This document shows, piece by piece, positions 8,353 to 25,807 of a stretch of 49,315 nucleotides of DNA (position 1 is its first letter; each line of letters begins with the position of its first letter). Made by a program: the position numbers and the translations under genes. The stretch is from a virus: positions 1-49,315 of the IMG/VR virus record IMGVR_UViG_3300002835_000297. One strand, written 5' to 3'. The notes under the pieces were generated by a model. It did not search any database and had not been told where the DNA came from. It saw nothing but the letters and a program-made list of their open reading frames with translations.

Positions 8353-9783
8353 ATGAAAGAAAGTTACGTTCCACAATCGCAAAGGAAAAAAATCTTATTG
8401 TTATGTGATGATATCAGAATGACATCTGGTATATCAACAATGGCTAGAGAAATTGTACTAGGTACAGCGCATCATTACAATTGGGTTAACATTGGAGGTG
8501 CTATTAACCATCCAGACCAGGGTAAGCGTTTTGATTTAAATGCTGATACTAATAAACATGCTGGTATTGATGATGCTAATATTATTCTATACCCAATAAG
8601 TGGATATGGAGATGCTCAGTATATCAGACAGATGTTAGATTTTGAAAAGCCAGATGCATTAATGATGTTTACAGATCCAAGATATTGGATTTGGTTATTT
8701 CAAATTGAAAATGAAATTAGAAGAAGGATACCTATTATTTACCTTAACATTTGGGATGATTATCCAGCTCCATTGTATAATGAACCTTATTATGAGTCAT
8801 GTGATGGATTGATGGCTATATCAAAACAAACACTTAATATAAATAAAATAGTATTAGGTGATAAAGCTAAAAATAAAGTGTTAAGTTATGTACCACATGG
8901 TATTAATGAAAAACATTTTTTCCCAATTGAAGATACCTCTAAACTAGATGAAGTTAAGAAAAAATTATTCGGTGATAAACAATATGATTTTGTTTTAATG
9001 TTTAACTCTAGAAATATTAGACGTAAACAAATACCAGATACTATGGCTGCATTTAAGGTATTTTTAGATAAATTACCTAAAGAAAAAGCTAATAAATGCG
9101 CTTTAGTATTACATACTCAACCTGTTGATGAACATGGTACTGACTTATATGCGGTGCGTGATATGTTATTCACTGATGAACAATGTAGTCAAATTTATTT
9201 TTCTGATTCAAGAATACCAACTTCAGATCTTAATTTAGTTTATAATATTTCTGATGCTTGTATTTTATTAACATCAAATGAAGGATGGGGATTATCACTT
9301 ACTGAAGCAATGATGTGTGGTAAACCAATTATTGGTAATGTAACAGGTGGGATGCAAGACCAAATGCGTTTTGTAGATGAAAATGGCAAATGGATTGATT
9401 TTGACGCTGATTTTTGTTCTAATCATTTTGGTAAATATAAACAATGTGGTGAATGGACTATACCAGTATTTCCAAGTAATATAAGTATTCAAGGTTCTGT
9501 TCCAACACCTTATATCTATGATGATAGAGCTGACTTTAGAGATGCAGCTGATGCTATTATGAAGATGTATGAAATGGGAGATGAAGAACGTAAATATAGA
9601 GGAAAATTAGCTCGTGAGTGGGTAACATCAGATGAATCAATGATGTCAGCTGAAAACATGAGTAGAAATGTTATAAAGCATATCAATGAAGTTTTGGCTA
9701 ACTGGAAACCAAGACATAAATTTGAGTTAATTAAAACTGAACCACTTAAAAGAAAACATATTCGTCACAAATTAGTTTATTGA
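8353..9783 (+). CDS. GT-B glycosyltransferase (GT4-like)
   Basis: A 476-residue GT-B enzyme. The N-terminal Rossmann half begins KKILLLCDDIRMTSGISTMAREI, and the C-terminal half holds the donor-binding signature near residue 310 (SNEGWGLSLTEAMMCGKP), the E-x7-E type motif of retaining GT4 enzymes. It would transfer a sugar from a nucleotide donor to a glycan or protein acceptor in the cytoplasm. First gene of a long glycan island, followed after 6 nt by a second GT4-like gene. The ATG at 8353 has an AT-rich leader. Donor and acceptor are unknown. Confidence 0.85.
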   Translation: MKESYVPQSQRKKILLLCDDIRMTSGISTMAREIVLGTAHHYNWVNIGGAINHPDQGKRFDLNADTNKHAGIDDANIILYPISGYGDAQYIRQMLDFEKPDALMMFTDPRYWIWLFQIENEIRRRIPIIYLNIWDDYPAPLYNEPYYESCDGLMAISKQTLNINKIVLGDKAKNKVLSYVPHGINEKHFFPIEDTSKLDEVKKKLFGDKQYDFVLMFNSRNIRRKQIPDTMAAFKVFLDKLPKEKANKCALVLHTQPVDEHGTDLYAVRDMLFTDEQCSQIYFSDSRIPTSDLNLVYNISDACILLTSNEGWGLSLTEAMMCGKPIIGNVTGGMQDQMRFVDENGKWIDFDADFCSNHFGKYKQCGEWTIPVFPSNISIQGSVPTPYIYDDRADFRDAADAIMKMYEMGDEERKYRGKLAREWVTSDESMMSAENMSRNVIKHINEVLANWKPRHKFELIKTEPLKRKHIRHKLVY

Positions 9784-9789
9784 TAAGTT

Positions 9790-11124
9790 ATGAAACCATT
9801 AGTAGTTATAAGTTGCCCTCTTGAAACAATGTCAGGGTATGGTGCTAGATCTAGAGACATAGTTAAAGCACTTTTGAAATATGACAAATATGATGTTAAA
9901 GTTATTTCTCAACGTTGGGGTAACACAGCTTGGAATGCTTTAGATCCTAATAAAACTGAAGATAAACAGTTATTAGATTTAATTTGGCGCCAACCTCAAT
10001 TACCTAAACAACCTGATGTTTGGATTCAAATTACAGTACCAAATGAGTTTCAACCAATTGGTAAATGTAATATTGGTATCACAGCAGGTATTGAAACAAC
10101 AGTATGTGATCCAACATGGATTGAAGGTATTAATAGAATGGATTTGACTTTAGTATCATCAAATCATGCTAAACAAGTATTTGAACAATCTGTTTTTGAA
10201 AAGAAAGATAAAAATAGTCAACAATTAGTAGGTGTTATTAAATTAGAAAAACCAGTTGATGTATTATTTGAGGGAGCTGATTTAAATAAATATTTCGCTA
10301 TTAATAATGATGAGTTAGAAGAAACAGATTTAGTTTTAGCTTTAGATGAAATTAAAGAAAGTTTTTGTTTCTTATTTGTAGGCCACTGGTTACAAGGTGA
10401 TATAGGTGAAGATAGAAAAAATGTTGGTTACATGATTAAATCATTCTTAGAAACATTTAAGAATAAAAAAGGAATCAAACCAGCTTTAATTTTAAAAACA
10501 GCCCAAGTAACTAACTCTATAATGGATAGAGATGAAGTACTTAAAAAGATTGATGCTATTAAAAGTACTGTTAAAGGTGATTTACCAAACATTTATTTGT
10601 TACATGGTGATTTAGATGATAAGGATATAAATGACTTATATAACCATGATAAAATAAAAGCAATGGTGTCATTAACTAAAGGTGAAGGATTTGGAAGACC
10701 ATTACTTGAATTTAGTTTATCTAAAAAACCTATTATTGCTAGTAATTGGAGTGGACATATTGATTTCTTACATCCAGAATATAATGTTTTAGTGAATGGT
10801 ACTTTAAATCCAGTTCATAAGTCAGCTCAAGCTAAAAATATGATATTAGCTGAATCAAGTTGGTTTACTCCTAACGATGGTGAAGTTGCTGATGCTTATA
10901 AATCAGTTTATAATGATTATGATAAGTATTTAGAAAAAGCTAAACGTCAAGCTCATTTTGCTAAAACAAATTACTCATTTGATAAAATGGCTGAGATATT
11001 AAATAATATCTTTGAAACTAGAGTACCTAAACAAGTTGAACTTAAATTACCAGCGTTAAAAAAATTAGGTTCAGTTACTGAAGCACCTAAAATTAGTTTA
11101 CCTAAACTTAAAAAATTAGATTAA
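9790..11124 (+). CDS. GT-B glycosyltransferase (GT4-like)
   Basis: A 444-residue GT-B enzyme related in plan to the preceding one. Seen: SCPLETMSGYGARSRDIV near residue 10 (glycine loop of the first half), FVGHWLQGDIGEDRKNVGYMI around residue 200 and the donor-site block TKGEGFGRPLLEFSLSKKP near residue 296 with two Glu seven residues apart. The C-terminus ends in a Lys/Leu/Pro-rich tail (LPALKKLG...ISLPKLKKLD) that repeats a short LPxLKKL unit, perhaps for membrane or partner binding. It overlaps the next gene by one base. Confidence 0.85.
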   Translation: MKPLVVISCPLETMSGYGARSRDIVKALLKYDKYDVKVISQRWGNTAWNALDPNKTEDKQLLDLIWRQPQLPKQPDVWIQITVPNEFQPIGKCNIGITAGIETTVCDPTWIEGINRMDLTLVSSNHAKQVFEQSVFEKKDKNSQQLVGVIKLEKPVDVLFEGADLNKYFAINNDELEETDLVLALDEIKESFCFLFVGHWLQGDIGEDRKNVGYMIKSFLETFKNKKGIKPALILKTAQVTNSIMDRDEVLKKIDAIKSTVKGDLPNIYLLHGDLDDKDINDLYNHDKIKAMVSLTKGEGFGRPLLEFSLSKKPIIASNWSGHIDFLHPEYNVLVNGTLNPVHKSAQAKNMILAESSWFTPNDGEVADAYKSVYNDYDKYLEKAKRQAHFAKTNYSFDKMAEILNNIFETRVPKQVELKLPALKKLGSVTEAPKISLPKLKKLD

Positions 11125-11309: not shown

Positions 11310-11311
11310 TT

Positions 11312-11740: not shown

Positions 11741-11749
11741 AATTAAATT

Positions 11750-12376
11750 ATGACTACTATTAGTTTTGCTATCACCGCTTGGAATGAACATATTGAATTA
11801 GAACGTCTATTAGACCAATTAGTAACCATTGTTAAACCAGAAGATGAAATAATGGTTCAGTTAGACAATACAGCTACAGATGAAGTAAAGAAAGTAGCTA
11901 CTAAATACAATGTTGGTCAAAAATTTGAATATCATAGAATACTTTCCTCACTAAATGGTGACTTCGCAACATTTAAGAATAATGTTAAAAATCACTGTAC
12001 ACGTGATTGGGTATTTTTTATTGATGCTGATGAGTACCTAAGTAAGGGTTTAGCTGAAAATATTCATAACATATTGGATATGAATAAAGGTCTAGTAGAT
12101 TTAATCGCCGTACCTAGAATCAACACTGTTGAAGGATTAACTCGCAGCCATATTGATAAATGGCGCTGGTTTGTAGATGATAATGGTTGGATTAACTATC
12201 CAGATTATCAAACACGTATTTGTGCTAATAAAAAAGATATTCAATGGAAAAATAAAGTACATGAACGTCTTATGGGTTGGAAAACAATAGCCAATTTACC
12301 TGAAGGATACGAATTAGTACATCCTAAAACAATTGAAAGACAAGAAAAACAGAATAAATTTTATGAAACAATTTAA
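11750..12376 (+). CDS. GT-A glycosyltransferase (GT2-like)
   Basis: A 208-residue GT-A enzyme. SFAITAWNE at the N-terminus is the first nucleotide-binding strand of GT2 enzymes, MVQLDN is the second acidic position, and FFIDADEYL holds the metal-binding D92-A93-D94. It is shorter than most GT2 enzymes (about 250-300 residues) but has the whole catalytic core and ends in HPKTIERQEKQNKFYE. It resembles the LPS core heptose/glucose transferase branch. It overlaps the dehydrogenase gene by 14 nt. Confidence 0.82.
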   Translation: MTTISFAITAWNEHIELERLLDQLVTIVKPEDEIMVQLDNTATDEVKKVATKYNVGQKFEYHRILSSLNGDFATFKNNVKNHCTRDWVFFIDADEYLSKGLAENIHNILDMNKGLVDLIAVPRINTVEGLTRSHIDKWRWFVDDNGWINYPDYQTRICANKKDIQWKNKVHERLMGWKTIANLPEGYELVHPKTIERQEKQNKFYETI

Positions 12377-13214: not shown

Positions 13215-13218
13215 TATA

Positions 13219-13512
13219 ATGATTATCTATGTTGATATAGATGAGACAATTTGTTTTTATGATAAAGAAAGAGAATATTCTTTAGCTAAACCAAACTCAG
13301 AAAATATCAATAAAATAAATAAACTATATGATGAAGGACATCATATAACTTATTGGACAGCTAGAGGTAGTGTCACTAAAATTGATTATTATAATATTAC
13401 TAAACAACAATTAGATGAATGGGGATGTAAATATCATGAATTAAGTGTTGGTGTTAAACCTCCTTATGATCTATTAATATGTGATAAAACAAAACGAATA
13501 GAAGAAATATAA
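13219..13512 (+). CDS. Small HAD-like phosphatase
   Basis: The ATG at 13219, 4 nt after the upstream stop, gives 97 residues; an in-frame ATG at 13171 would overlap the upstream gene by 44 nt. The HAD nucleophile motif is VDIDETI near residue 4 (Asp-x-Asp-x-T/S). YWTARGS supplies the second motif Thr/Ser and DLLICDKTK the final acidic block. This small C0 type matches capsule-associated phosphatases often found in sugar loci. It may dephosphorylate a sugar phosphate made by neighbouring enzymes (inference). Confidence 0.75.
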   Translation: MIIYVDIDETICFYDKEREYSLAKPNSENINKINKLYDEGHHITYWTARGSVTKIDYYNITKQQLDEWGCKYHELSVGVKPPYDLLICDKTKRIEEI

Positions 13513-13513
13513 T

Positions 13514-14572
13514 ATGTTTGTAAAAAGTAATAATGAAGTATACTTTATAGCTGAAGTAGGGCAAAATCATAATGGTGATATTGATATAGCTAAAAAATTA
13601 ATTGACCAACTTAATCAGTATCCATATGATGAAATAAGTGGAGACAGATTAAATAAAGTTAACGCTATTAAATTAACTAAGAGAGATTTAGATGAAGAAT
13701 TATCTAAAAACGGAATGTTAGCCCCATATACTGGTAAACATTCATTTGGTAAAACATATGGTGAACATAGAGCATATTTAGAATTAAGTTATGAACAACA
13801 TGCTGAGTTAGGCAAGTATATTAAAAGTTTAGGTTTTGATTTTATTGAAACATTATGCTCACTTAAGACTTTAAAATTACTAGATATAGCTCCTGTTGAT
13901 AAAATAAAAGTAGCATCTAGAGATTTAACTAATATACCTTTAATTGAAGCTATAGCTAAAACTAGAATACCAGTTATTCTATCTACAGGTATGGCTGGTG
14001 AAGCTGAATTAGAAACAGCATTAGAAATATTTGATAAAAATAGTAGTTATGATATTTCAATACTACATTGTTTATCTCAATACCCAGCTGAGTTTAGTAG
14101 ATTGAATTTAAACACTATAAAATATTTAAAACAAAAATATCCTAATAATAAAATAGGTTACTCAGATCATTCATTAGGTATTCATATTTCTCTAGCTGCT
14201 GTCGCTATGGGAGCTGAAATTATAGAGAAACATGTCACATTAGATAAGAATATGAAAGGTACTGATCAAGCTGGTTCATCTGAGTCTCATGAGGTAAAAC
14301 AGTTACTACATGATATTAGAACATTTGAATTAGGATTAGGCCAAATGGCTTTATTTAAAGATGATTCTATTGAATTAGCCTCAAAGAAATTAGAACGTTC
14401 GTTAGCAACTAATATATTTATACAACCAGGAGAAATTATAACTGAAGATAAAATTCATATGATTAGCCCTGGAGATGGATTTAAATGGAGTGATAGAGAT
14501 AAATTTATAAATAAAGTAGCTAAGACTTTTATTGATGAAAATACAATCCTCAATTTAGATCAAATACAATGA
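13514..14572 (+). CDS. neuB: NeuB-family nonulosonic (sialic-type) acid synthase
   Basis: A 352-residue synthase that condenses phosphoenolpyruvate with an N-acetylhexosamine (ManNAc or a 6-deoxy relative) to give a nine-carbon acid. The NeuB signatures are all present: FIAEVGQNHNGD (11-22), VASRDLTNIPLIEA, STGMAGEAELETAL, LHCLSQYPAEFSRLNL, IGYSDHSLGIHISLAAVAMGA and EKHVTLDKNMKGTDQ. The C-terminal 65 residues form the SAF/antifreeze-like domain (RSLATNIFIQPGEIITEDKI). Length is normal. The NeuA-like gene overlaps by ATGA, which strengthens the pathway call. Whether the product is sialic, legionaminic or pseudaminic acid cannot be read from the sequence. Confidence 0.9.
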   Translation: MFVKSNNEVYFIAEVGQNHNGDIDIAKKLIDQLNQYPYDEISGDRLNKVNAIKLTKRDLDEELSKNGMLAPYTGKHSFGKTYGEHRAYLELSYEQHAELGKYIKSLGFDFIETLCSLKTLKLLDIAPVDKIKVASRDLTNIPLIEAIAKTRIPVILSTGMAGEAELETALEIFDKNSSYDISILHCLSQYPAEFSRLNLNTIKYLKQKYPNNKIGYSDHSLGIHISLAAVAMGAEIIEKHVTLDKNMKGTDQAGSSESHEVKQLLHDIRTFELGLGQMALFKDDSIELASKKLERSLATNIFIQPGEIITEDKIHMISPGDGFKWSDRDKFINKVAKTFIDENTILNLDQIQ

Positions 14573-15255
14573 AATCAGTAAATGATATTTGTTTTATAGT
14601 TCAGGCTCGTTTAAACTCTCAAAGAGTGCCTAATAAAATGGTTAAACCATTTTGTAATACTACTCTAACTGATGTTATTATACAAAAATTATTAGATTGT
14701 GAAAATATACCTAACAATCAGATTTATTTATCTGTTTTTGAAGATGAACTAATTAGTATAGGTAATAAATACCCTATTAACATTTATAAACGATCTTATG
14801 AATCAGCCAATGTTGATAATGGTATTGATGTTTTATTTGAATGGTATAATAAATTACCTTACAAGTATGTTATTTTAGTGAGTGGATGTAATCCATTATT
14901 AAAAACAAGTACTATAGATAATTTTATTAACACTTACTTAAACCAGGATGAAGAAGGATTATTCGCTGTTATAGAGAAAAAAAATTATTTTTGGAATAAT
15001 GAAGGTGAGTTACTTAATAAATGGCCTGAAGGACAAGACTTATTAAATACAAAAGCAGTAGATACAACATATGAGGCAGCTCATTGTTTATATGCTTCTA
15101 GAATAGATAGTATAGGTAAAGGTAAATGGGTTGGTAGTTGGAAAATAAAAAATGATCCTGTTTTATTTCCTATGAATGAATTAGAGGCATTTGATATAGA
15201 TTACGAATGGCAATTTCAAACAGCTCAAATATTATATAATGGTTTTAGAAACTAA
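14569..15255 (+). CDS. NeuA/SpsF-like cytidylyltransferase
   Basis: A 228-residue nucleotidyltransferase of the GT-A-like CMP-sugar synthetase family. The N-terminal block IVQARLNSQRVPNKMVKPF (10-28) is the CTP-binding loop; LVSGCNPLL near residue 105 matches the conserved segment that usually reads DxPxL, with Asp replaced here by Cys-Asn. It would activate the acid made by the NeuB-like enzyme to its CMP form. It overlaps neuB by ATGA and the next gene by 17 nt. SpsF-like enzymes of unknown specificity share the same motif, so NeuA function rests mainly on context. Confidence 0.78.
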   Translation: MKSVNDICFIVQARLNSQRVPNKMVKPFCNTTLTDVIIQKLLDCENIPNNQIYLSVFEDELISIGNKYPINIYKRSYESANVDNGIDVLFEWYNKLPYKYVILVSGCNPLLKTSTIDNFINTYLNQDEEGLFAVIEKKNYFWNNEGELLNKWPEGQDLLNTKAVDTTYEAAHCLYASRIDSIGKGKWVGSWKIKNDPVLFPMNELEAFDIDYEWQFQTAQILYNGFRN

Positions 15256-16015
15256 AAATATAAAACAAGACTTATTACGTTTTGAATCAATAGAAGAACG
15301 ATTAGACTATTTAAAAAACAAATACCAGAACAAAACTGCTATCATTGTAGCTCCTGGTCCTACATTAAATAATCATGATCATGTTAAATTAAGAGAAATA
15401 TTTAAAACTAGAGAAGATTTAGTTATCATTCCTATAAAACAAGCTTATGATGTTTGTAAGGAGACATCTGATTTTCATATTGTTAATACTTATAACTTTG
15501 ATAAATATAAAGGATATGATTATGTTAATTTAGATTTAATTATATTCTATGGTTTGGCAAAATCATATGTTAATGATCAAATTGAAAAATTAATGATTAA
15601 ACCTCACCCATGTGATATATGGGTACCAATTGTTAATCCACCCTATATAACTTATAACCAATGTATGCATAAATCTGGAGATTGGGATAAGATGTTTATG
15701 TTACAAAATGAACCTCAATCATGGTGGGGTACTTCAATTTTATTTGAACAAGCTATACCGATGGCTTTATTAATTGGGTGTAAAAAAATTATAACTATAG
15801 GTTGGGATTTAACAACTGGTAAACATTCATATGATCATAATAAGACAAATTTTAATGTTATGTCAGGAGAAGAAGAAAAAACTTTGGATAGTATAAAAGG
15901 AACATTATCTTTATATGAATGGTGTTTAAAAAATAATATTGAATTAAATATATTATCTAAAATAAACGCTGCTGATTCCAGGTTTAAACGACTAAATGAT
16001 ATAAATGAGTTATGA
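15239..16015 (+). CDS. Putative sialyltransferase-like (GT42/DUF115-type) protein
   Basis: A 258-residue protein. TAIIVAPGPTLNNHD (33-47) resembles the GNGPSL nucleotide loop of GT42 sialyltransferases and MptE/DUF115 proteins, and WGTSILFEQAIPMALLIG followed by KKIITIGWDL and HSYDH resembles their second conserved segment, where an acceptor or donor contact and a His occur. The C-terminus (WCLKNNIELNILSKINAADS) also fits the last strand pattern. Directly downstream of NeuB- and NeuA-like genes, a transferase using the CMP-sugar is plausible. The motif match is by eye and partial. Confidence 0.6.
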   Translation: MVLETKNIKQDLLRFESIEERLDYLKNKYQNKTAIIVAPGPTLNNHDHVKLREIFKTREDLVIIPIKQAYDVCKETSDFHIVNTYNFDKYKGYDYVNLDLIIFYGLAKSYVNDQIEKLMIKPHPCDIWVPIVNPPYITYNQCMHKSGDWDKMFMLQNEPQSWWGTSILFEQAIPMALLIGCKKIITIGWDLTTGKHSYDHNKTNFNVMSGEEEKTLDSIKGTLSLYEWCLKNNIELNILSKINAADSRFKRLNDINEL

Positions 16016-16776
16016 ATATAGTTTTTATACCAAATATTGATGCTAAAAATAATAGGAACAGGCCATATCATTTTTCAATTAACAGTTGGAAAAAATGGGC
16101 TGAAAAATTTGACAATGTGAGAGTTGTTGAGTGGACTGATCCAATTATGGATCCTAATATTATGAAAGTAACATTACAACGTTACTGGGTGTTTGACATA
16201 TTAGAACATAACAATATTGAGTTTGATCAAGTGTTATTAGTAGATGCTGATACTATAATTCATCCTGATTGCCCTAATTTTTTTGAAGAAACAGATAATA
16301 AATTTTGTGGTGTCTTAAATAGTGGATGTTATGAGTGGGTTATAAGAAGTATTAGAGAATGGGGTGATGCTTTATTTCCTAATGATAAAAAAGTTAAACC
16401 ATGGAAATATATAAACGGTGGATTCATAATTGTAAATAAACAACATGAAGAATTATTAAAAACCATTCAAAAATTTTATTTAGATAATTTAAATGACATT
16501 AATACATTAGCTGCTAAAATTAAAGCAGGTACTGATCAAACTATAATAAATTATCTTTTACAAAAATATAATGTCCAAGTTAAATATCTTCCAGATTGTT
16601 ATAATCTTCAATCAATGTTTGATAAACACATGCTTCATCTCCCAGGTCACGCTTGGTGGCCAGATGAATTAATTTATTTGGAGGCGGGATGGATATATCA
16701 TTTTAATGCTATACCTCAAAATCCTCGAGATGACTATTATTGGATGGAACGTACCTATAACAAACTTTATAATTAA
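16012..16776 (+). CDS. GT-A glycosyltransferase (GT8-like)
   Basis: A 254-residue GT-A protein with a metal-binding DAD in VLLVDADTIIHPD (about residues 73-85), a YINGGFIIVNK segment near residue 132 that matches the GT8-type N-x-G acceptor strand, and IYHFNAIPQNPRDDYYW near the C-terminus, giving the last metal-contact His. It overlaps the upstream gene by ATGA. Donor and acceptor unknown. Retaining GT8-like enzymes often build LPS cores or glycogenin-type chains; here it is one of several transferases for a phage-specified glycan. Confidence 0.8.
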   Translation: MNIVFIPNIDAKNNRNRPYHFSINSWKKWAEKFDNVRVVEWTDPIMDPNIMKVTLQRYWVFDILEHNNIEFDQVLLVDADTIIHPDCPNFFEETDNKFCGVLNSGCYEWVIRSIREWGDALFPNDKKVKPWKYINGGFIIVNKQHEELLKTIQKFYLDNLNDINTLAAKIKAGTDQTIINYLLQKYNVQVKYLPDCYNLQSMFDKHMLHLPGHAWWPDELIYLEAGWIYHFNAIPQNPRDDYYWMERTYNKLYN

Positions 16777-16782
16777 TTTATT

Positions 16783-17400
16783 ATGAACATAGACCAATTA
16801 TTAAATACTCTTCCTGATAAAGAATTAAGATGGAAAAGTACTACTAGCAGAATATTTAAGAAAAACTTATATGATTTTTTAGTTGATAAACAAATTGATC
16901 AATCTTTAGAAATAGGTACAAATCAAGGTTTAACTTCATTAATATTATCTTATGTTTCAAATAAAGTTTATACTGTTGAATTAATGGAACATAATGTTGT
17001 TGAGGCTAAAAAACATTGTAGTGAAAGAAATAATATAGAATTTATCAATGGAAATGCTTACTCTGATTTAACTTATATTTCTTGCCCTAAATATTTTGAT
17101 GTAGTAGTTATAGATTGTTTACATGATTATGATAGTGTAATTAAAGATATAAACCGAGCATTATCCTTTTTTAATCCTGATAAAGGAATTTATTTAATAT
17201 TTGATGATTACTCACATCCAGAATTTAATGGCGTAAGAGCAGCTATTGATGAGTCAATTCAAAGTGGTCTAAAAGTAGAATGTTATATTGGACAACCTAA
17301 AGGACATACATTTAAAACTAGTGATACTCATAGTTTTGAATTAATAGGACCAGAAGGTATTATTTTAAGTTATGGAAAACAAATTTATAAAAACATTTAA
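16783..17400 (+). CDS. Class I SAM-dependent methyltransferase
   Basis: A 205-residue protein with the SAM-binding motif I SLEIGTNQGL (41-50), the acidic motif II at VYTVELME, a motif IV VVVIDCLHDYDS and FDDYSHPEFNGVRAAIDE, which matches the Methyltransf_24 family linked to sugar or small-molecule methylation. The HDYD residues bind metal in related enzymes. It sits inside the glycan island and could O-methylate a sugar of the product. A second member of this kind is at 35840. Confidence 0.8.
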   Translation: MNIDQLLNTLPDKELRWKSTTSRIFKKNLYDFLVDKQIDQSLEIGTNQGLTSLILSYVSNKVYTVELMEHNVVEAKKHCSERNNIEFINGNAYSDLTYISCPKYFDVVVIDCLHDYDSVIKDINRALSFFNPDKGIYLIFDDYSHPEFNGVRAAIDESIQSGLKVECYIGQPKGHTFKTSDTHSFELIGPEGIILSYGKQIYKNI

Positions 17401-17413
17401 ATATATTTTACTT

Positions 17414-18418
17414 ATGCAACTTACTAAAAAATATGTGATAGGATGTCATGTTATGTTCTATGAAATAGAAATATATAAAGAATATATAAGCGGATTAATA
17501 AACATGTTAAAATCTATTTCTAACAAAGAAAATGTTTATATCGATTTATGTTTTAATATATCAGAAAAAATAGAGAAAATTGATACTTCTAAAATATCTA
17601 AAGAAGAATTACTTAAACAATTTAATGATGGTGTTGATCGCTTAAGACAAATAAATATTCCTAATATTATTACTAAAATTATCACACCTGAAGATGATTT
17701 TTATTTCCATGCTGATTATAGAAGAGATTTGAATTATAATTATTGTAAAAAAGTTGATTATGTGATGCATGGAGAGACAGATAGTTTTTTCCCAAAAGAA
17801 GCACTTCATGCTTTGGAAGTATTATCTGAGTATACTCAATCACAAAATTTATATAGATATATAGTTTGCTTTGCTGATAGAAAAATGTGGGATAAGAGTT
17901 GGGATCCAACTGTACATCCAAGATATATAAATCATATTTTTGAGGACGGACCTGATAGTCATTTAAATCCTAACCAAGCTAAATCAAGAATGACAATTGA
18001 AGAAATGAATAAAATAAATTCTGAAATTGATCAGTTTGAATTTAATTATATTAACTATCCAAAGTTAGATGGTTCTTGTTTGGTTCTCACATCAGATTTA
18101 ATTAAATTTGGAGTAAATGTTCCATCATGTTTAATATATAATGATGACCATGGTGTTAGTATTATGGCTCAAAAACTTTGTAAAGAAAATTACATTCAGT
18201 TTATTTGTAAAAACTTATTAAAAGTCCACGCTCGAAGACATCCTAAAAAACGATTATATGTTTTAGATGAAAACAATCCTTATTCAATAGGTACTAATAA
18301 AATTGATATTTTTGAAAAATTTAAAAATCTATCAGATAAAAATATTGAAATATTAGTAAATGAGTCATCTAATAGATTTTATAACCATAATGATTTTATA
18401 AAAATTATAAATAAATAA
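17414..18418 (+). CDS. GT-A-like glycosyltransferase, family uncertain
   Basis: Start at the ATG at 17414 gives 334 residues; an ATG at 17372 would overlap the upstream gene by 29 nt and adds a sequence unlike the fold. KKYVIGCHVMFYEIEIYKEY starts as a GT2-like strand and helix, and VDYVMHGETDSFFPKEALHALEVL carries an acidic ETD at the metal position. Proteins of this sort occur in marine T4-like phages as predicted glycosyltransferases. Support is structural pattern plus context, not a strong motif. Confidence 0.6.
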   Translation: MQLTKKYVIGCHVMFYEIEIYKEYISGLINMLKSISNKENVYIDLCFNISEKIEKIDTSKISKEELLKQFNDGVDRLRQINIPNIITKIITPEDDFYFHADYRRDLNYNYCKKVDYVMHGETDSFFPKEALHALEVLSEYTQSQNLYRYIVCFADRKMWDKSWDPTVHPRYINHIFEDGPDSHLNPNQAKSRMTIEEMNKINSEIDQFEFNYINYPKLDGSCLVLTSDLIKFGVNVPSCLIYNDDHGVSIMAQKLCKENYIQFICKNLLKVHARRHPKKRLYVLDENNPYSIGTNKIDIFEKFKNLSDKNIEILVNESSNRFYNHNDFIKIINK

Positions 18419-18420
18419 AA

Positions 18421-19398
18421 ATGAAAACAGCATTAATAACAGGTATAAGTGGGATGGATGGAAGTCATTTAGCTGATTTCCTTTTAAAAAAAGGATATAA
18501 AATATATGGAGTTGAAAGAAGAAGTTCTTCTAGAAACAGAATAAATACTAAACATTTAGAAGATAAAATTACTTTTTTACAAGGAGATTTAACTGATCAA
18601 AATTCTTTGTTTCGTTGTTTAAAAGAAAGTAACCCAGATGAAGTATATAATTTAGCCGCTCAATCGTTTGTTGGAGAAAGTTGGAACACACCTGAGTACA
18701 CCTCAGAAGTAACTGGATTAGGTGTTTTAAGAATATTAGAGGCTATTAGAGAATTTAATCCTAAAATAAAATTTTATCAAGCATCTAGTTCAGAAATGTT
18801 TGGTCGTATGATTGAAAACCCAGCTAATGAAAATACACCATTTTATCCTCGTTCTCCATATGGAGTGTCTAAACTATATGGACATTGGATAACTAAAAAT
18901 TATAGGGAGTCTTATAATATGTTTGCTTGTAGTGGTATATTATTTAATCATGAATCTGAAAGAAGAGGTATTGAATTTGTAACTAGAAAAATATCTAATG
19001 GTGTAGCTAAAATAGCTTTAGGATTATCAGACTGTATTAGTCTTGGAAATTTAGATGCAAAAAGAGACTGGGGATACGCTCCTGATTATGTTGAAGCCAT
19101 GTGGTTGATATTACAGCAAGATAATCCTGATGATTATGTTATAGCCACTGGTGAGACAAAATCTATTAGAGAATTTTTAGATATTGCTTTTAAGTATGTT
19201 GGGATTGAAAATTGGGAACCATATATTAAAGTTGATCCTAAATTTTTTAGACCAGCTGAAGTTGATATTTTAAGAGGTGATTATAGTAAAGCACATAAAC
19301 AATTAGATTGGTATCCAAAAACCACTTTTGAAGATTTAGTTAAAATTATGATTAATAACGATTTAAAAATATTAAAATATAAAAATACCTTATCATAA
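18421..19398 (+). CDS. gmd: GDP-mannose 4,6-dehydratase
   Basis: A 325-residue extended SDR that turns GDP-mannose into GDP-4-keto-6-deoxymannose. NADP-binding GISGMDG (8-14), then Gmd-specific GVERRSSSRN (30-39), YNLAAQSFVGESW (76-88), SSSEMFG (122-128) and the catalytic Y147-x3-K151 in YGVSKLYGHW. FNHESERRG, which holds the substrate-binding Arg pair, is also typical. Length is close to the bacterial family (about 345-370), slightly short at the C-terminus. Its product feeds GDP-fucose or, with a DegT-type aminotransferase such as that at 20286, GDP-perosamine. It starts 2 nt after the upstream stop. Confidence 0.92.
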   Translation: MKTALITGISGMDGSHLADFLLKKGYKIYGVERRSSSRNRINTKHLEDKITFLQGDLTDQNSLFRCLKESNPDEVYNLAAQSFVGESWNTPEYTSEVTGLGVLRILEAIREFNPKIKFYQASSSEMFGRMIENPANENTPFYPRSPYGVSKLYGHWITKNYRESYNMFACSGILFNHESERRGIEFVTRKISNGVAKIALGLSDCISLGNLDAKRDWGYAPDYVEAMWLILQQDNPDDYVIATGETKSIREFLDIAFKYVGIENWEPYIKVDPKFFRPAEVDILRGDYSKAHKQLDWYPKTTFEDLVKIMINNDLKILKYKNTLS

Positions 19399-19437
19399 TT
19401 TATCTATAATAGGCTCAAATCAAAATAAATTTATAAT

Positions 19438-20289
19438 ATGAATTTTATAACTACTTTTACTGAGGAGATATATAAAATATGTGGTAGGAATTTACTACAA
19501 TCATTTATTAAAACTCAAAATTCAAATGAACATAAACTGTATGTGTTTTTTGAAAATGAAGATGATCCATATACTGAGTTTTATCCTGATTGGTTAGTTG
19601 AATGGGTTAATGAGCCTAGTATAGTGATAGTTAATTTAATGACATATGAATATAATAATGAAAAGATAATTCCATATGTTGATAAAACATTGAGTTCTAA
19701 AATATCATTTACAGATGAGTATAGTAGTCCTAGAAGTGTCAAATGGTTTAGGCCTGTAGTAGCTATGATGTATGCTTCTGAAGTTATAGATGGTAATTTT
19801 AGCTCAATAGATTCAGATTGTTTATTCATTGATAAAGTAGAAGAATCATTTTTTGATTCTATATTATCAGATTACAATGTTGCTTTCTTAGGTAGAGAAA
19901 ATTTTAAACTAATGAGACATGGATCATATACTCCAAATGGTGAATATGTTCATACTAGGACTGTAGAGGCTACAAGTAAAGATACTCATACTGAAACAGG
20001 ATATTTAGGATTTAATATGAGTAAACCAGGTACAAAAGAATTTATAAAACGAAATTTTGAATACTGGATAAAAGAAGACATATTAAATTTGGAATACCAA
20101 ACAGATTGTCATACCTTTGATGCTGTGAGAAAAGAATTAAATTTAAAATATAATAATCTTTGTGACCCAATGGGTGAAATATCTCCAATTGGAAGTAGAG
20201 TAATTGAAGCATCTGTGTTAGGTGACTTCATGATTCATCATAAAGGTACTATTGGACCTATTTTATACCAAAAAAATTTATTGAAATGA
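19438..20289 (+). CDS. Predicted GT-A-type glycosyltransferase
   Basis: A 283-residue protein. SSIDSDCLFIDKVEESFFD (about residues 122-140) carries DSD at the expected metal-binding position; ETGYLGFNMSKPGTKEFI and DCHTFDAVRKEL follow as an acceptor-site strand and helix, and a His pair in FMIHHKGTIGPIL could complete the metal site. This order occurs in phage and bacterial GT-A proteins of the island type. The start at 19438 follows a 39-nt AT-rich gap without a clear promoter motif. It overlaps the aminotransferase gene by 4 nt. Confidence 0.65.
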   Translation: MNFITTFTEEIYKICGRNLLQSFIKTQNSNEHKLYVFFENEDDPYTEFYPDWLVEWVNEPSIVIVNLMTYEYNNEKIIPYVDKTLSSKISFTDEYSSPRSVKWFRPVVAMMYASEVIDGNFSSIDSDCLFIDKVEESFFDSILSDYNVAFLGRENFKLMRHGSYTPNGEYVHTRTVEATSKDTHTETGYLGFNMSKPGTKEFIKRNFEYWIKEDILNLEYQTDCHTFDAVRKELNLKYNNLCDPMGEISPIGSRVIEASVLGDFMIHHKGTIGPILYQKNLLK

Positions 20290-21362
20290 TACCAATGTCC
20301 ATTCCATATTTGTATAAAGAAGATAAACAATTAGCTATCAAAGCTATTAAAGAAAATTATCTAGCTTATGGACCACAAATTGAAGAATTTGAAATAGCAT
20401 TTGCTTCATATTGTGGAAGAAAATATGGTGTTACTTGTAATAGTGGAACATCAGCGTTATATTTAGCTGTTAAAGCACTTAAATTACCTAAAAATAGTGA
20501 GGTAATAATTCCATCAATGGCTATCACCTCGTTATTAAACGCAGTTGAAAAAAATGGATTAACACCTATATTTTGTGATGTTGATATTAAAACATGGAAT
20601 GCTACTTATAAAACAATTAAAAGTAAAATCACATCTAATACATCAGCTATTATCATAGTTGATACTTATGGTTTATTAGTCAATACAGATGATATAATTA
20701 AGTTAAAACAAGAATATCCTAATATTAAAATAATTGAGGACGCAGCTGAAGCACATGGTGGTTATCATAATGAAGTTAAAGCAGGATCAATAGGTGATAT
20801 TAGTACATTTTCATTTTATGCTAATAAAATCATTACTACAGGTGAAGGAGGAATGGTATTAACAGATGATGAAGAAACATATAAACAATTATTAGCAGAT
20901 AGAAATATCAACTTTGTAGAACGTAAACGTTATATTCATTCTGAAGCAGGATTTAATTTTAGAATGACTAACTTACAATGTTGTATCGGATTAGGCCAGC
21001 TTCAAAATATAGGAAAAACTATTAAACATAGAAAAAGAATAGCTAAACGCTATAATAAAAATCTTAAATTAAATAAAAATATTCAATTACCTTATAATGG
21101 TAAAGGATATGACAATGTATACTGGTATTATTCAATTGTAGTTAAAGATAATTATGATAAAGTAATTAAAGCATTACAAGATAATAATATTGATTATAGA
21201 CATTTTTTCTATCCATTACATAAACAACCATTTATTAACTCTAATGAACCATTACCTAATTCAGAGTATTTAGCTAAGTATGGTGTTATATTACCAACAT
21301 ATACTGAATTAACAAATGAACAAATTGATTTTATAAGTAAAATAATATTAGAACAATTATGA
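20286..21362 (+). CDS. DegT/DnrJ/EryC1/StrS sugar aminotransferase
   Basis: A 358-residue PLP enzyme that transaminates a 4-keto (or 3-keto) nucleotide sugar. Seen: NSGTSALYLAVKAL (52-65, phosphate loop), FCDVD (96-100), EDAAEAHGG (151-159) and the PLP lysine K181 in SFYANKIITTGEGGM, then FNFRMTNLQCCIGLGQL near the C-terminal domain boundary. With the Gmd gene nearby it is best read as a GDP-perosamine synthase type enzyme, but the same family also makes other amino sugars. Gene order (Gmd, GT, aminotransferase) and the ATGA overlaps on both sides support a common pathway. Confidence 0.88.
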   Translation: MIPMSIPYLYKEDKQLAIKAIKENYLAYGPQIEEFEIAFASYCGRKYGVTCNSGTSALYLAVKALKLPKNSEVIIPSMAITSLLNAVEKNGLTPIFCDVDIKTWNATYKTIKSKITSNTSAIIIVDTYGLLVNTDDIIKLKQEYPNIKIIEDAAEAHGGYHNEVKAGSIGDISTFSFYANKIITTGEGGMVLTDDEETYKQLLADRNINFVERKRYIHSEAGFNFRMTNLQCCIGLGQLQNIGKTIKHRKRIAKRYNKNLKLNKNIQLPYNGKGYDNVYWYYSIVVKDNYDKVIKALQDNNIDYRHFFYPLHKQPFINSNEPLPNSEYLAKYGVILPTYTELTNEQIDFISKIILEQL

Positions 21363-21850
21363 AACTAAATTTAGCATCTGGTCAAATGTATCTAGATGGA
21401 TATATTAATGTTGATAACAAGTCCATGTATCATGGAAATATGAAGGTTGATAAAGAAGCTGATGTGTTCACATTAGAATGGGAAAATAACACTGTAGAAG
21501 AAATTATTTTATCTCATTTTGCAATGTATATATCATATCAGGATATGAGTATGTTATTGAAAAGATGGTTTGGTTGGTTAAAAAAAGAAGGCAGAATAAT
21601 AATAGAGACAGGTAATGTTAAAGCTATAGCTAAACATATATTAGATAATAGTAATCCTAAAGAAATAAATAGTGCTAATGGTGTGATGCAATTATTTGGA
21701 TGGGAAACAACCGCAGGACATAAATGGGCTTGGTGCCCTGAAACATTAGGTGAACTAATGATGAATGCTGGTTTTACTAATATTGAAGTAGGTGAAGGTT
21801 ATTTTCATAATAATAAAGTTAGAGATTTTTTGATAGTTGGATATAAATAA
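21359..21850 (+). CDS. Class I SAM-dependent methyltransferase-like protein
   Basis: A 163-residue protein. KLNLASGQMYLDGYINVDN (2-20) is a SAM-binding loop and acidic strand of the predicted-methyltransferase type (LxLGxG...GyxnvD), EEIILSHFAMYI gives the motif IV region, and WFGWLKKEGRIIIETGN the following helix and strand. The protein is short but has the full core order. ATGA overlap with the aminotransferase gene. It may methylate the amino or hydroxyl group of the same sugar. Confidence 0.75.
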   Translation: MKLNLASGQMYLDGYINVDNKSMYHGNMKVDKEADVFTLEWENNTVEEIILSHFAMYISYQDMSMLLKRWFGWLKKEGRIIIETGNVKAIAKHILDNSNPKEINSANGVMQLFGWETTAGHKWAWCPETLGELMMNAGFTNIEVGEGYFHNNKVRDFLIVGYK

Positions 21851-21880
21851 AAAATAATAAAAAATAATAAAAAATAATAA
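21851..21880 (+). repeat. Three tandem copies of a 10-bp AT-rich unit
   Basis: AAAATAATAA occurs three times without interruption just upstream of the epimerase gene. It fills the 32-nt gap between two otherwise tightly packed genes and forms the leader of the next gene. It may be a slippage-prone spacer tuning translation of the ATG at 21883, or a simple low-complexity tract. Confidence 0.9.
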
Positions 21881-21882
21881 AA

Positions 21883-22842
21883 ATGAGACAAATAGTAAAC
21901 ACAAACGTATGCGTTATTGGAGGAGCTGGTTTTATTGGTTCCCATTTGGTTGATTATTTAATTGATGAAAGAAATTGTAATGTGATTGTATTAGATAATT
22001 TAATTACAGGACAGACAAAAAACATTAACTCAAAAGCTAAGTTTATTTGGCATGATATTAGAGATAATGAAAATGAATTAGCTAGAATATTAAAAGAAAA
22101 TAATGTTGAGTATGTTTTTAACTATGCTGCTGAACCTTATATTCCTGAATGTTTTGAACGCCCGATGCATTTCTTTGATATCAATGCTACATCAGTACTA
22201 CGAGTATTAAATGCTTGTCAAACAACAGGAATTAAAGGATTATTACAAGTATCATCAGCTGAGATATATGGTGATATGGTTGGTAAAATTAAAGAAAGCG
22301 ACCCAGTAGAACCACATTCAACTTATGGTGTGTCTAAATTAGCAGCAGATGGTTTAGTACAAGTAAGATGGAGAGAAGCTAATGTACCAGCTATAGCTAT
22401 GAGACAATTTAACTGTGTTGGTGAAAGAGAAACACATGAGTATGTTATTCCAGAAATTATCTCTCAGTTATCAAAATCTAATAAAGTAAAGTTAGGTAAT
22501 AACTCATTTAGAGATTTTCAATATGCTGGTGATGCTGTTAGGATGGCTGTTGAATTACTTGAGAAAGGTGAGTTTGGAGAAGTGTATAACATGGGAAGCG
22601 AGGAGGGAATCAAAATTTATGACTTGGCTCATTTGATTGGCAAATTAATAGGACATGAAAGTGTAGAAATTGAAGTTGATCAAGCTAGAGTACGACCATG
22701 GGAAATATGGCATTTACAATCAGACAATACTAAATTATATTCTGTAATAGGTGATAAAGTACCTACATCATTAGAAGAAGCATTGAAGAAAACAATTCAA
22801 TACTTTTATGATAATGGAGGTAAATGGGATTGGAAACAGTAA
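21883..22842 (+). CDS. NAD-dependent sugar epimerase/dehydratase (extended SDR)
   Basis: A 319-residue extended SDR. Rossmann glycine motif GGAGFIG (13-19), acidic D38 for NAD, NYAAEPYIPE (80-89), SSAEIYG (124-130) and catalytic Y148-x3-K152 in STYGVSKLAAD. RDFQYAGDAV matches the RDF.yVxD block of UDP-glucose 4-epimerases and dTDP-glucose dehydratases. It would alter a nucleotide sugar for the nearby transferases. The catalytic Tyr/Lys and Ser are intact, so it is likely active. Exact substrate unknown. Confidence 0.87.
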   Translation: MRQIVNTNVCVIGGAGFIGSHLVDYLIDERNCNVIVLDNLITGQTKNINSKAKFIWHDIRDNENELARILKENNVEYVFNYAAEPYIPECFERPMHFFDINATSVLRVLNACQTTGIKGLLQVSSAEIYGDMVGKIKESDPVEPHSTYGVSKLAADGLVQVRWREANVPAIAMRQFNCVGERETHEYVIPEIISQLSKSNKVKLGNNSFRDFQYAGDAVRMAVELLEKGEFGEVYNMGSEEGIKIYDLAHLIGKLIGHESVEIEVDQARVRPWEIWHLQSDNTKLYSVIGDKVPTSLEEALKKTIQYFYDNGGKWDWKQ

Positions 22843-22843
22843 T

Positions 22844-23800
22844 ATGGATAATGTTTACTATATAAATGAATTAGGATATTCTAGAGGAAGTCATAAATTT
22901 GATCTACATAGACTACCTCAAGCATATATTGAGTATTTTCCTTGGATAACAGTTTCTTGGAATGAAATTTATGATATACCTAAAAACAGTATTATATTTG
23001 TTCAAACTCCATGTAGTGATGAGTTTAATAAATTAAATAAGTTACTTTCTATTATTGATGATAATACTATTTTCATTAATCAAGAGTCAAATATATTTGA
23101 TTGGTTTGATTGGGATGCGAAAACTCAACAAGCATATATTGAATGTTTATCTAAATGTAAAGCATTTTGTTACCATAGTGAGCATGATAAAAAGGTAATG
23201 GAAGTATTTTGTTCTAATTTTATTAAATACCCTGGGTGTACTAATATTTTAGCTGAGTCATCTAAAAAATTTGATGAAGGACAATATGTTGTTATCCCTA
23301 ATCCTATAAAAAGATATCAACGAGGAATGATTTCTCATAAACTGGCTTCAGATAATATAAAAAATATTCCTATATACGCTATGTCTTATAAAAGACCAAT
23401 AACTAATGAATTATTAACATTTCCTGATGAGTATGTATTATCTAATATAGAGTTAAAAAATAGAATGGATTTAAATAAATGGTTTGAGTTTATATATAAT
23501 TCTAAATTTGGAATAGATATTCATCAAAATTTTTCTGGAGGTAATTGTAGTTTAGAATTTGGTGCTTTAGGTGTTCCATTAATAGGTAATATTAATTTAG
23601 ATACTCAGAAAGATATATTTCCAGATATATCATTTGAATATAATGATTATGAACAAATTAAAAACGCTATACATTTGCTTTTAAATGATAGTGATTTTTA
23701 TAATGAGGTGAGTAGTAAATCTTTAGTAAATACAAAAGAAAAATATAATAGTAAACTTATTGTTAAACAATTTAAACAAGATGTAATTAATTTATTATGA
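22844..23800 (+). CDS. GT-B-like glycosyltransferase, divergent
   Basis: Start at the ATG at 22844 (318 residues), one base after the upstream stop; an ATG at 22808 would read through the end of the SDR gene in another frame. The N-terminus has YINELGYSRGSHKFDLHRLPQ, a loop-helix like that of group 1 transferases. KFGIDIHQNFSGGNCSLEFGALGVPLIGN in the C-terminal half is placed like the donor-binding block of GT4 enzymes, with Glu in SLEFGALGVP. Identity to known families is weak, so the call rests on fold pattern and context. Confidence 0.6.
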   Translation: MDNVYYINELGYSRGSHKFDLHRLPQAYIEYFPWITVSWNEIYDIPKNSIIFVQTPCSDEFNKLNKLLSIIDDNTIFINQESNIFDWFDWDAKTQQAYIECLSKCKAFCYHSEHDKKVMEVFCSNFIKYPGCTNILAESSKKFDEGQYVVIPNPIKRYQRGMISHKLASDNIKNIPIYAMSYKRPITNELLTFPDEYVLSNIELKNRMDLNKWFEFIYNSKFGIDIHQNFSGGNCSLEFGALGVPLIGNINLDTQKDIFPDISFEYNDYEQIKNAIHLLLNDSDFYNEVSSKSLVNTKEKYNSKLIVKQFKQDVINLL

Positions 23801-24642
23801 AGATTTTAGTAACAGGTGGTGCTGGTTTTATAGGCACTAATTTAATTAAGAAACTAGTAAGTGAAGGACATGATGTGACATCAGTAGATAGTTATATTAC
23901 TGGTTATAAATCAAATCATGTGGATGGAGCTAAGTATGTTGAATTTGATATTAGAAACATAACAGACTATTCAGTATGGGGTGAATTTGATATTGTATAT
24001 CATTTAGCTGCTTTAGCCCGTATTCAACCTTCATTCAAAACACCTATTGATACATTTGAGATAAATGCTAATGGTACTTTATTAATAGCTAAATATTGCG
24101 CTGATAAAAATATTCCATTAGTGTTTGCAGGTAGCAGTTCACATTGGTCAGGTAAGTTTAAAAATCCTTATACATTTAGTAAAGATGTAAGTGAGGAAAT
24201 AGTTCAATTATTTCAAATACATTATGGTTTAAAAGCATCTATTGCTCGTTTCTATAATGTGTATGGTCCTAGTCATTTAAAAGAAGGTGCTTATTGTACT
24301 GTGATTGGTAAATGGGAAACCGCTTATGAAAACAAACAACCACTCACAATATATGGTACAGGTGAAAAACGTAGAGACTTTACTCATGTTGATGATATTG
24401 TTAAAGCCTTAATATTAATAAATGAAAAACAAGCTTGGGGACGTATATTTGAATTAGGTAGAGGTAAAAATTACTCTATTAAAGAAGTAGCCAGTATGTT
24501 CCAAACAAAGATAGAATATGAAGCTAATAAACCAGGTGAGGCTGAAGTAACATTATGTACAGATACATTAGCTAAAGAAGTATTAGGATGGGAAGCAGAA
24601 TTAAACTTAGAAGATTATATTAAAAATTATTTAAATGGATAA
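23797..24642 (+). CDS. Nucleotide-sugar epimerase (extended SDR)
   Basis: A 281-residue SDR. GGAGFIG (7-13), D31 in VDSYITG, YHLAALARIQPSF (68-80), AGSSSHW (111-117) and catalytic Y125-x3-K129 in NPYTFSKD. RRDFTHVDD is the standard epimerase block. It is shorter than GalE (about 330) and lacks part of the C-terminal substrate domain, as do many phage and island SDRs. ATGA overlap upstream and an 8-nt overlap downstream. Product unknown; it adds a second route of sugar conversion to the one at 21883. Confidence 0.85.
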   Translation: MKILVTGGAGFIGTNLIKKLVSEGHDVTSVDSYITGYKSNHVDGAKYVEFDIRNITDYSVWGEFDIVYHLAALARIQPSFKTPIDTFEINANGTLLIAKYCADKNIPLVFAGSSSHWSGKFKNPYTFSKDVSEEIVQLFQIHYGLKASIARFYNVYGPSHLKEGAYCTVIGKWETAYENKQPLTIYGTGEKRRDFTHVDDIVKALILINEKQAWGRIFELGRGKNYSIKEVASMFQTKIEYEANKPGEAEVTLCTDTLAKEVLGWEAELNLEDYIKNYLNG

Positions 24643-25807
24643 AATAACATTTGTACTACCAAGTAGAAATAATTTAGAATTTTTACAATTAGCATATAAA
24701 TCAATTCGTGATTTAGAAACTAAACATGAAATATTAGTTTTGGATGATGCTAGTATAGATGGAACTCAAGAATGGATTAAATCACTTAATGATGAGGATT
24801 TAATTACATATCATAACCCAGGACCAGAACGTATTGGTATTGTAGGTATGTTTGATAAGGGTATTGAAATGGCTAGAACAGAGATTATATTTGCATTTCA
24901 TGCTGATATGGTTGCTGGGGTTGATTTAGATAAAAATATACTTAAACATCTTAAACCAGGTACAGTAGTGAGTGCTACTAGAATTGAACCACCATTACAT
25001 CCAGCTGGTCCAGAAAAAATAATTGAGGACTTTGGAATTGAAGCTGATCAATTTAAAGAAGTTAAATTTAAAGAATATTGTAATAAACTAATTGAATTAA
25101 ATAAAGATAGATTTACTGAAGGTATATTTGCACCTTGGTGTATGTATAAATCAGATTATTTAGCTATTGGAGGACACGATGAGTTATTTGCTCCTCAATC
25201 AAAAGAAGATAGTGATTTATTTAATCGTTTTGTTTTAAAAGGATATAAAGTAATTCAATCATGGGATGGTTTAGTTTATCATTTCACTAGTCGTGGAAGT
25301 AGATTTAATAAACATGCTGGAGGTGGTGCTGGTAAGAATAGTGAAGAATGGCTTTACACAACAAATAAAAATGCTAGAAATTTTGTCCGTAAGTGGGGAC
25401 ATTTTGTTAAACATGATATGTTCATGAAACCAATTATACCTCATAAGTATAATATAGGATTTAGAGTAAGTAATTGTGCTATTGAAATGTTAGCTACTTT
25501 AGAACCATGGTGTTCAGAAATTTCATCTGACGCTAGTTATGCTGATTGGTTAAATAAAGAGCAAAAACATACTACATTGAATATGCTTAGTAGAGTCAAA
25601 CCATGGAATGCTCCTCTTAATAATGATATTATAATTGAATTTGATGCCTCTTTATTAACTAAAGAATCATTTAATATTATAACTAGTCTTCCAGACATTA
25701 TAACTGAGTCAGGTGAAATAGGTGAATTTGAACTAGATATATTTAAAATATCTATATATGCCATGACAACATATGAACATAATCTTGTTCATATTTATAA
25801 TAAATAA
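24635..25807 (+). CDS. GT2-family glycosyltransferase with C-terminal extension
   Basis: A 390-residue GT-A enzyme. TFVLPSRNNLEFL (4-16) is the first nucleotide strand, LVLDDASIDGTQEW the second with two Asp, and FAFHADMVAG holds an H-A-D variant of the DxD. GIFAPWCMYKSDYLAIGGHDELF and SKEDSDLFNRFVLKGYK match the catalytic ED loop, and a His-rich YHFTSRGSRFNKHAGGGAG follows. The last 100 residues form an extra mostly beta/helical domain of unknown role. Last gene of the main island. Confidence 0.85.
   Translation: MDKITFVLPSRNNLEFLQLAYKSIRDLETKHEILVLDDASIDGTQEWIKSLNDEDLITYHNPGPERIGIVGMFDKGIEMARTEIIFAFHADMVAGVDLDKNILKHLKPGTVVSATRIEPPLHPAGPEKIIEDFGIEADQFKEVKFKEYCNKLIELNKDRFTEGIFAPWCMYKSDYLAIGGHDELFAPQSKEDSDLFNRFVLKGYKVIQSWDGLVYHFTSRGSRFNKHAGGGAGKNSEEWLYTTNKNARNFVRKWGHFVKHDMFMKPIIPHKYNIGFRVSNCAIEMLATLEPWCSEISSDASYADWLNKEQKHTTLNMLSRVKPWNAPLNNDIIIEFDASLLTKESFNIITSLPDIITESGEIGEFELDIFKISIYAMTTYEHNLVHIYNK

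Follow-up and report, generated by a model that had tools for sequence, protein, structure and literature searches.

A phage-borne gene unit for predicted CMP-nonulosonate synthesis, probably of the 9-phosphate type, carried as interchangeable cargo of a glycosylation locus

The 49,315-nt IMG/VR virus record IMGVR_UViG_3300002835_000297, analyzed here over its whole length (the window), carries a compact set of genes that very probably provides a phage with its own synthesis and CTP-dependent activation of a nonulosonic acid (NulO), as judged from gene families, folds and catalytic residues. The original prediction, made from the sequence alone, had described three of these genes, namely a NeuB synthase, a NeuA-like cytidylyltransferase and a sialyltransferase-like gene, and their arrangement was confirmed: the NeuB stop at 14572 and the synthetase start at 14569 form an ATGA junction, and the synthetase overlaps the third gene by 17 nt (15239-15255). 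A further member of the unit, absent from that prediction, is a small HAD phosphatase gene, which ends one base upstream of the NeuB start (13512 / 13514) and for which the ATG at 13219 is favoured over a TTG at 13171. Taking the synthesis route and the genomic setting together, and leaving the acceptor aside, we hold with moderate confidence that these genes would constitute a translationally coupled cytidine monophosphate (CMP)-nonulosonate unit, which forms one interchangeable cargo in a glycosylation locus spanning 8353-25807 (Table 1). While the individual enzymes are of known kinds, a phage-borne 9-phosphate route of the 2-keto-3-deoxynononic acid (Kdn) type with its own HAD, and the use of such a module as exchangeable cargo of a phage glycosylation locus, are to our knowledge new within the searches made.

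The synthase is full-length, as had been claimed. It matches PF03102 (E=2e-66, 224 bits vs a cut-off of 22.1) and its C-terminal SAF domain reaches 22.5 bits with PF08666 (cut-off 21). Comparison with the active site of Neisseria meningitidis NeuB, restricted to reliably aligned positions (N74, F288 and R314 fall outside), revealed that E25, K53, T110, K129, S132, S154, Y186, S213, H215, E234, H236 and D247 are kept, and that the two substitutions, E134 to D and Q55 to T, both match the BT1714 ortholog introduced below. Purifying selection is evident against two partial homologues, with dN/dS of about 0.09 (203 codons) and 0.03 (125 codons). Equivalog names from NCBIfam were dropped for both NeuB and NeuA because all scores lay below their cut-offs; the phage NeuB reached 251.7 with the N-acetylneuraminate synthase model TIGR03569 (cut-off 399.65), and the synthetase reached 29 with the curated PseF equivalog (cut-off 205.7).

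The subtype of the synthase was assessed through its bacterial relatives. About 85,000 species genomes were scanned, and the best 80 relatives, with 50-57% identity, were retained, nearly all of them from Bacteroidota. Within three genes of the NeuB in these 80 loci, a cytidylyltransferase-family gene is present in 75, a BT1713-type HAD gene in 72, and both in 68. With NF058599, the curated model for KDN-9-phosphatase, two sampled HADs score above the cut-off (232 and 244 bits vs 180), and one sampled HAD has as its best match PDB 3e81, which we take to be BT1713. The anchor genome G061 encodes a HAD 99% identical to PDB 3e81, directly preceded by a NeuB gene (L114:356-1396) whose product was taken as the BT1714 ortholog. 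The phage NeuB is 52% identical to this ortholog, 26-31% identical to N-acetylmannosamine (ManNAc)-type NeuB, PseI and SpsE, and 41% identical, over a shorter stretch, to the Leptospira enzyme 6ncs. In a tree of 94 sequences (quick search, SH-aLRT support, no bootstrap), the NeuB of the window groups with four further phage NeuBs in one clade (99), which joins 25 Bacteroidota sequences, including that of L114, in a 30-row clade with SH-aLRT support of 100 that leaves out ManNAc-type NeuB, PseI and SpsE. This clustering suggests that the phage enzyme is probably of the 9-phosphate (Kdn, BT1714) type, not the ManNAc type, and takes the phosphate route. The motif FGxTYGEH served as one of the search patterns, and its presence in the fetched relatives is partly a matter of selection and does not count as independent evidence.

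The second gene product matches PF02348 (E=5e-13), and its AlphaFold2 (AF2) model (pLDDT 94.9) finds as top Foldseek matches the CMP-N-acetylneuraminic acid (CMP-NeuAc) synthetase of Vibrio cholerae (6ifd), a CMP-Kdn synthetase (9t4z) and murine CMAS (1qwj), with TM scores of 0.7-0.8. The predicted cytidylyltransferase is thus modelled with a related fold, that of a CMP-nonulosonate synthetase. It is distant from the Bacteroidota neighbours, among which its best matches are about 31% or less and cover part of the protein only. As for the HAD, 55 viral homologues show little or no variation at its catalytic positions (DxD, T and D), and this HAD gene lies near a BT1714-type NeuB in L004, L007, L008 and L132 as well, with differing gene orders. 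On these grounds the HAD is proposed to be a putative NulO-9-phosphate phosphatase. BT1713-like (KdsC-type) HADs also occur in the same stretch as NeuB in two viral loci (L025:4199-4696, L030:10895-11527).

For the third protein, the original prediction had pointed to GT42/DUF115-like features. The DUF115 part stands, since Pfam and Foldseek place the protein with MptE/DUF115-like proteins, and so does a distant likeness to sialyltransferases, whereas the GT42 assignment was dropped: the Pfam scan gave no PF06002 match, and neither CstI nor CstII appears in the first 50 hits from Foldseek. The protein scores 35.5 bits with the MptE-like family PF01973 (cut-off 34.6), and its AF2 model (pLDDT 88.9) best matches MptE (8sd5, E=1.4e-4, TM about 0.5), followed more weakly by human ST6GALNAC2 with CMP (6apl, prob 0.97) and ST6Gal1 (0.60). 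Among viral models (BFVD) it matches MptE-like proteins and one GT29 at E<1e-4, some of the BFVD matches being annotated as GT29; a PDB sequence search with its profile gave a weak MptE match only. A likeness to CstI/CstII can still be seen in three elements that follow one another much as in CstII, namely a GPSL stretch rich in glycine close to the start, then a GWD motif and the conserved His196. By the tests made, the protein is best modelled as MptE-like with distant sialyltransferase similarity, and not as GT42. An MptE-like gene lies within three genes of 27 out of 77 phosphate-type NeuBs vs two out of 40 other NeuBs (Fisher p=2e-4, uncorrected for relatedness), and in many loci the MptE-like domain sits within proteins of about 650-700 aa, of which the one scanned (L149) begins with a glycosyltransferase family 4 (GT4) domain. 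This linkage to phosphate-type NeuBs and the GT4 fusion argue for a glycosyltransferase role, and a NulO transferase is the assignment that we slightly favour. Such proteins of 650-700 aa lie directly upstream of NeuB at L149:4467-6458 and similarly in L159, L165, L168 and L170. The gene that follows in the window travels together with the MptE-like gene in L004, L007 and L189, and its product has no Pfam, NCBIfam or PHROG match.

The unit lies in a sugar-gene island preceded by genes for phage replication, among them a clamp loader at 4937-5821 and an exonuclease at 7159-8100, and comparison with relatives divides this island into a conserved frame and a swapped interior. Judged by the nuclease gene (46%), Flavobacterium phage immuto (MW353176) is the closest phage in culture. 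The two phages share the frame, consisting of nuclease, small protein, two glycosyltransferases, small protein, GT2, cargo, epimerase, glycosyltransferase and further shared genes, but the cargo of immuto comprises DegT, pilin-glycosylation-like and mannosyltransferase genes, with no NeuB or CMP synthetase match. Two relatives, L221 and L228, have 83-87% DNA identity to the window until 13183-13210, are unrelated thereafter, with other sugar genes in place of the segment of about 13.2-23.8 kb, and become alignable again (82%) from 23796. Homology of L214 also ends at 13183-13210, and in other relatives it breaks at 12376 and resumes near 23791-24634. Viral contigs picked by the two frame glycosyltransferases alone gave 26 distinct loci that extend 8 kb or more downstream. 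NeuB plus synthetase were found in three of them, one being the window's own phage; genes further downstream would escape this count. Within the cargo, a sub-block at 19423-22833 (DegT, epimerase) shares 78% DNA identity with L232 and L233, which suggests nested module exchange between different cargo contexts. This cargo-swap pattern resembles that of bacterial serotype loci, yet within a phage.

Table 1. Features of the glycosylation locus in the window, with the evidence for each.
Feature	Coordinates	Strand	Evidence
HAD phosphatase, minimal, 97 aa, EcbF/BcbF-like	13219..13512	+	PHROG 1238 E=3e-26, PHROG 415, PDB 9iqw 4e-12
NeuB-family synthase, BT1714-type (predicted), with SAF	13514..14572	+	PF03102, PF08666, tree, catalytic residues
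CMP-nonulosonate synthetase (NeuA-like, predicted), phage-specific family	14569..15255	+	PF02348, AF2 and Foldseek
MptE-like / distantly GT29-like protein, 258 aa, proposed NulO transferase	15239..16015	+	PF01973, AF2, Foldseek, context
Gene of unassigned family	16012..16776	+	4-nt overlap with MptE-like gene; synteny
GDP-mannose 4,6-dehydratase (GMD), in cargo	18421..19398	+	TIGR01472 446.8 bits, cut-off 415
Interchangeable cargo, HAD through 22808 gene	13219..23795	+	DNA homology breaks in relatives
GT4-like glycosyltransferase a, left frame	8353..9783	+	PF00534; 62% to immuto
GT4-like glycosyltransferase b, left frame	9790..11124	+	PF00534 25.8 bits, just below cut-off; 57% to immuto
GT2, left frame	11750..12376	+	PF00535
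NDP-sugar epimerase, right frame	23797..24642	+	PF01370; 68% to immuto
GT2-family glycosyltransferase z, right frame	24635..25807	+	PF00535; 66% to immuto

Given a synthase of this type, the following route can be proposed. NeuB would condense host mannose-6-phosphate (Man-6-P) with phosphoenolpyruvate to Kdn-9-phosphate (Kdn-9-P), the adjacent HAD would release Kdn, and the NeuA-like enzyme would couple Kdn with CTP to CMP-Kdn. This donor would then be used by the MptE-like protein or by a different transferase encoded in the island. BT1714-type synthases of Bacteroides thetaiotaomicron and Prymnesium parvum use Man-6-P to form Kdn-9-P, and the steps that follow fall to a phosphatase and a CMP-Kdn synthetase (PMC6200933). 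In line with the earlier remark that NeuC is lacking and that the host would supply the precursor, the window has no hydrolysing epimerase of the NeuC route (PF02350), which one out of nine virus records does contain. With a phosphate-type NeuB and a HAD, neither NeuC nor LegB is expected, and the precursor would most likely be ordinary host Man-6-P.

By analogy with the characterized synthases, the product is moderately favoured to be Kdn rather than N-acetylneuraminic acid (Neu5Ac). A NeuB that takes ManNAc-6-phosphate to Neu5Ac-9-phosphate, as vertebrate NANS does, would lead to CMP-Neu5Ac, and since the human 9-phosphate synthase accepts both Man-6-P and ManNAc-6-phosphate, the enzyme class alone leaves the sugar unfixed (PMC6200933). 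We consider this product quite unlikely, as the nearest clade belongs to Bacteroidota with Kdn-9-P phosphatases, PF02350 is missing from the window and the P. parvum enzyme is strictly specific for Man-6-P (PMC6200933). Less probable still, to the point of being very unlikely, is a standard pathway to legionaminic or pseudaminic acid, in which the DegT and epimerase of the island would feed NeuB as LegC/LegB-type enzymes. It is true that LegC/PseC are the best models for the DegT at 20286, although sub-threshold, that the gene at 21883 has sub-threshold LegB similarity, and that 15 out of 40 canonical-clade phage NeuBs lie near a DegT gene. Against this, DegT is rare near phosphate-type NeuBs (6/77), the window holds no LegG or NeuC, and the clade placement of NeuB is a different one. 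In addition, the DegT submodule at 19423-22833 recurs in L232-L234, where the sampled stretch is without NeuB, and the L232/L233 cases speak against a place for DegT in the NulO pathway.

The MptE-like protein might be a pterin/nucleotide-type MptE kinase or serve some other function, with another enzyme transferring the NulO; MptE is indeed its best match in both Pfam and PDB. We regard this as rather unlikely in view of the linkage to NeuB loci, the fusion to a GT4 domain and the next fold matches, which include CMP-bound and CMP-sialic-acid-bound sialyltransferases as well as BFVD models annotated as GT29. As to the acceptor, none of the open reading frames of the island encodes a hydrophobic stretch of the kind expected for a membrane helix. 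Searches for a Wzx-type flippase, a Bac_transf initiating enzyme and a WecA-type enzyme, covering the window and eight related virus records (94-158 kb), found none, while control genomes were positive. The lack of export genes and membrane proteins favours cytoplasmic protein glycosylation over a lipid-linked surface polysaccharide. Virion proteins are made in the cytoplasm, where transfer by Maf enzymes also takes place. The locus would then act on a cytoplasmic acceptor, for which a phage virion protein is the leading candidate, albeit held at somewhat less than even confidence. The same pathway could instead build a glycan on the host lipid carrier or lipopolysaccharide by means of the host flippase and ligase and thereby remodel the surface of the infected cell. 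The GT4 and GT2 enzymes, GMD, DegT, epimerases and nucleotide-sugar dehydrogenase do resemble those of O-antigen and capsule loci, and the cassettes are swapped as in serotype loci; still, the island lacks any membrane protein, flippase or initiating phosphoglycosyltransferase, none of the three searched families occurs in the nine virus records, and we judge surface remodelling unlikely. If it were true, it might block superinfecting phages or stop progeny from re-adsorbing. Returning to the virion as acceptor, it can be speculated, and only tentatively, that a phage lineage with a serotype-like swapped glycan locus decorates its virion in the host cytoplasm, with one allele of this locus coating it with Kdn made via the 9-phosphate route.

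Several observations weigh against the combined picture of a Kdn-type route, a dedicated transferase and a virion acceptor. The phage HAD is not orthologous to the KdsC-like BT1713, in whose place an EcbF/BcbF-like HAD stands, and the same phage HAD family is also found beside GMD genes. The HAD lies near 14 out of 77 phosphate-type NeuBs vs two out of 40 others, a borderline difference (p=0.05), so a general HAD-NeuB association over all viral NeuBs is not relied on heavily beyond the clade to which the window belongs. Foldseek TM scores of the third protein to MptE and GT29 are just about 0.4-0.57, and L008 has NeuB, HAD and synthetase without an adjoining MptE-like gene. Furthermore, the host could supply the missing export genes, the virus records may be incomplete, and the 49-kb window contains no gp23-type capsid gene.

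The three predicted activities have counterparts in known systems. The CMP-Kdn cassette of B. thetaiotaomicron likewise has them in adjacent genes, with a NeuB of the sister clade; in contrast, the phage module has a smaller HAD of another subtype, a synthetase of a phage family and a coupled MptE-like gene. The vertebrate NANS/NANP/CMAS pathway follows the same 9-phosphate logic of synthase, phosphatase and CMP synthetase (PMC6200933), a likeness drawn at the level of the pathway, whereas the phage NeuB groups with bacteria and the sugar likely differs. MptE/DUF115-type proteins are related to Maf flagellin glycosyltransferases. Maf enzymes are proposed to transfer nonulosonic acid directly from the CMP donor onto protein (PMC3426422, PMC11339370); the phage protein, likened to them without direct comparison, is a single domain and not a large multi-domain enzyme, and the window proteins that were scanned include no flagellin. 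Sugar genes in phages are commonly interpreted as a means of remodelling the host surface. We contend that a complete CMP-nonulosonate module plus phosphatase in a swappable slot, with no detected export machinery, makes phage-built, varied glycan coats a testable idea, and the module is also a compact source of predicted CMP-Kdn enzymes.

An origin of the module from contaminating host DNA was rejected on the basis of the replication genes, the frame common to a cultured phage, the identical copy of the NeuB/synthetase/MptE-like unit in records from two other metagenomes, and the gp23-type capsid gene in the 130-kb L008 record, which carries the same NeuB type. The phage is aquatic, and its relationship to immuto and the NeuB relatives indicate that it probably infects Bacteroidota. 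Viral contigs searched with the synthetase yielded 84 relatives, of which 80 were kept, two records being the window's own phage; within about 8 kb, a NeuB homologue is present in 75 of these 80 loci, a HAD in 54 and an MptE-like gene in 35. Among 50,697 annotated phage records, three had a NeuB match and none had a synthetase or MptE-like match at E 1e-5. The view that such a module is unusual in a phage therefore holds for annotated records and not for uncultured viral loci: uncultured aquatic phages commonly carry NeuB together with the synthetase, a combination almost invisible among annotated ones. In the literature searched, no description of a phage NeuB/CMP-Kdn module was found.

Some minor features accompany these results. 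Scans of the window for tRNA genes and Rfam families gave no match. The nucleotide-sugar dehydrogenase at 12366-13214 (282 aa) has matched NAD-binding and central domains and is missing the C-terminal UDP-binding domain. The left-frame GT2 (11750-12376) weakly resembles the peptide S-glycosyltransferase SunS (TIGR04195, 31 bits vs a cut-off of 350), which is compatible with protein glycosylation. Many other phage NeuBs (L023:9977-10828, L131, L133, L142) are about 270-300 aa long and seemingly end before SAF, often beside the same HAD, and at L132:5373-7312 a tandem pair of different NeuB genes follows the HAD gene. In L013, L014, L018 and L021, the contigs of which are probably siphovirus-type, a motif-type NeuB lies, by calls made by eye, beside a gene resembling a methyltransferase or sulfotransferase and beside a portal-like structural gene.

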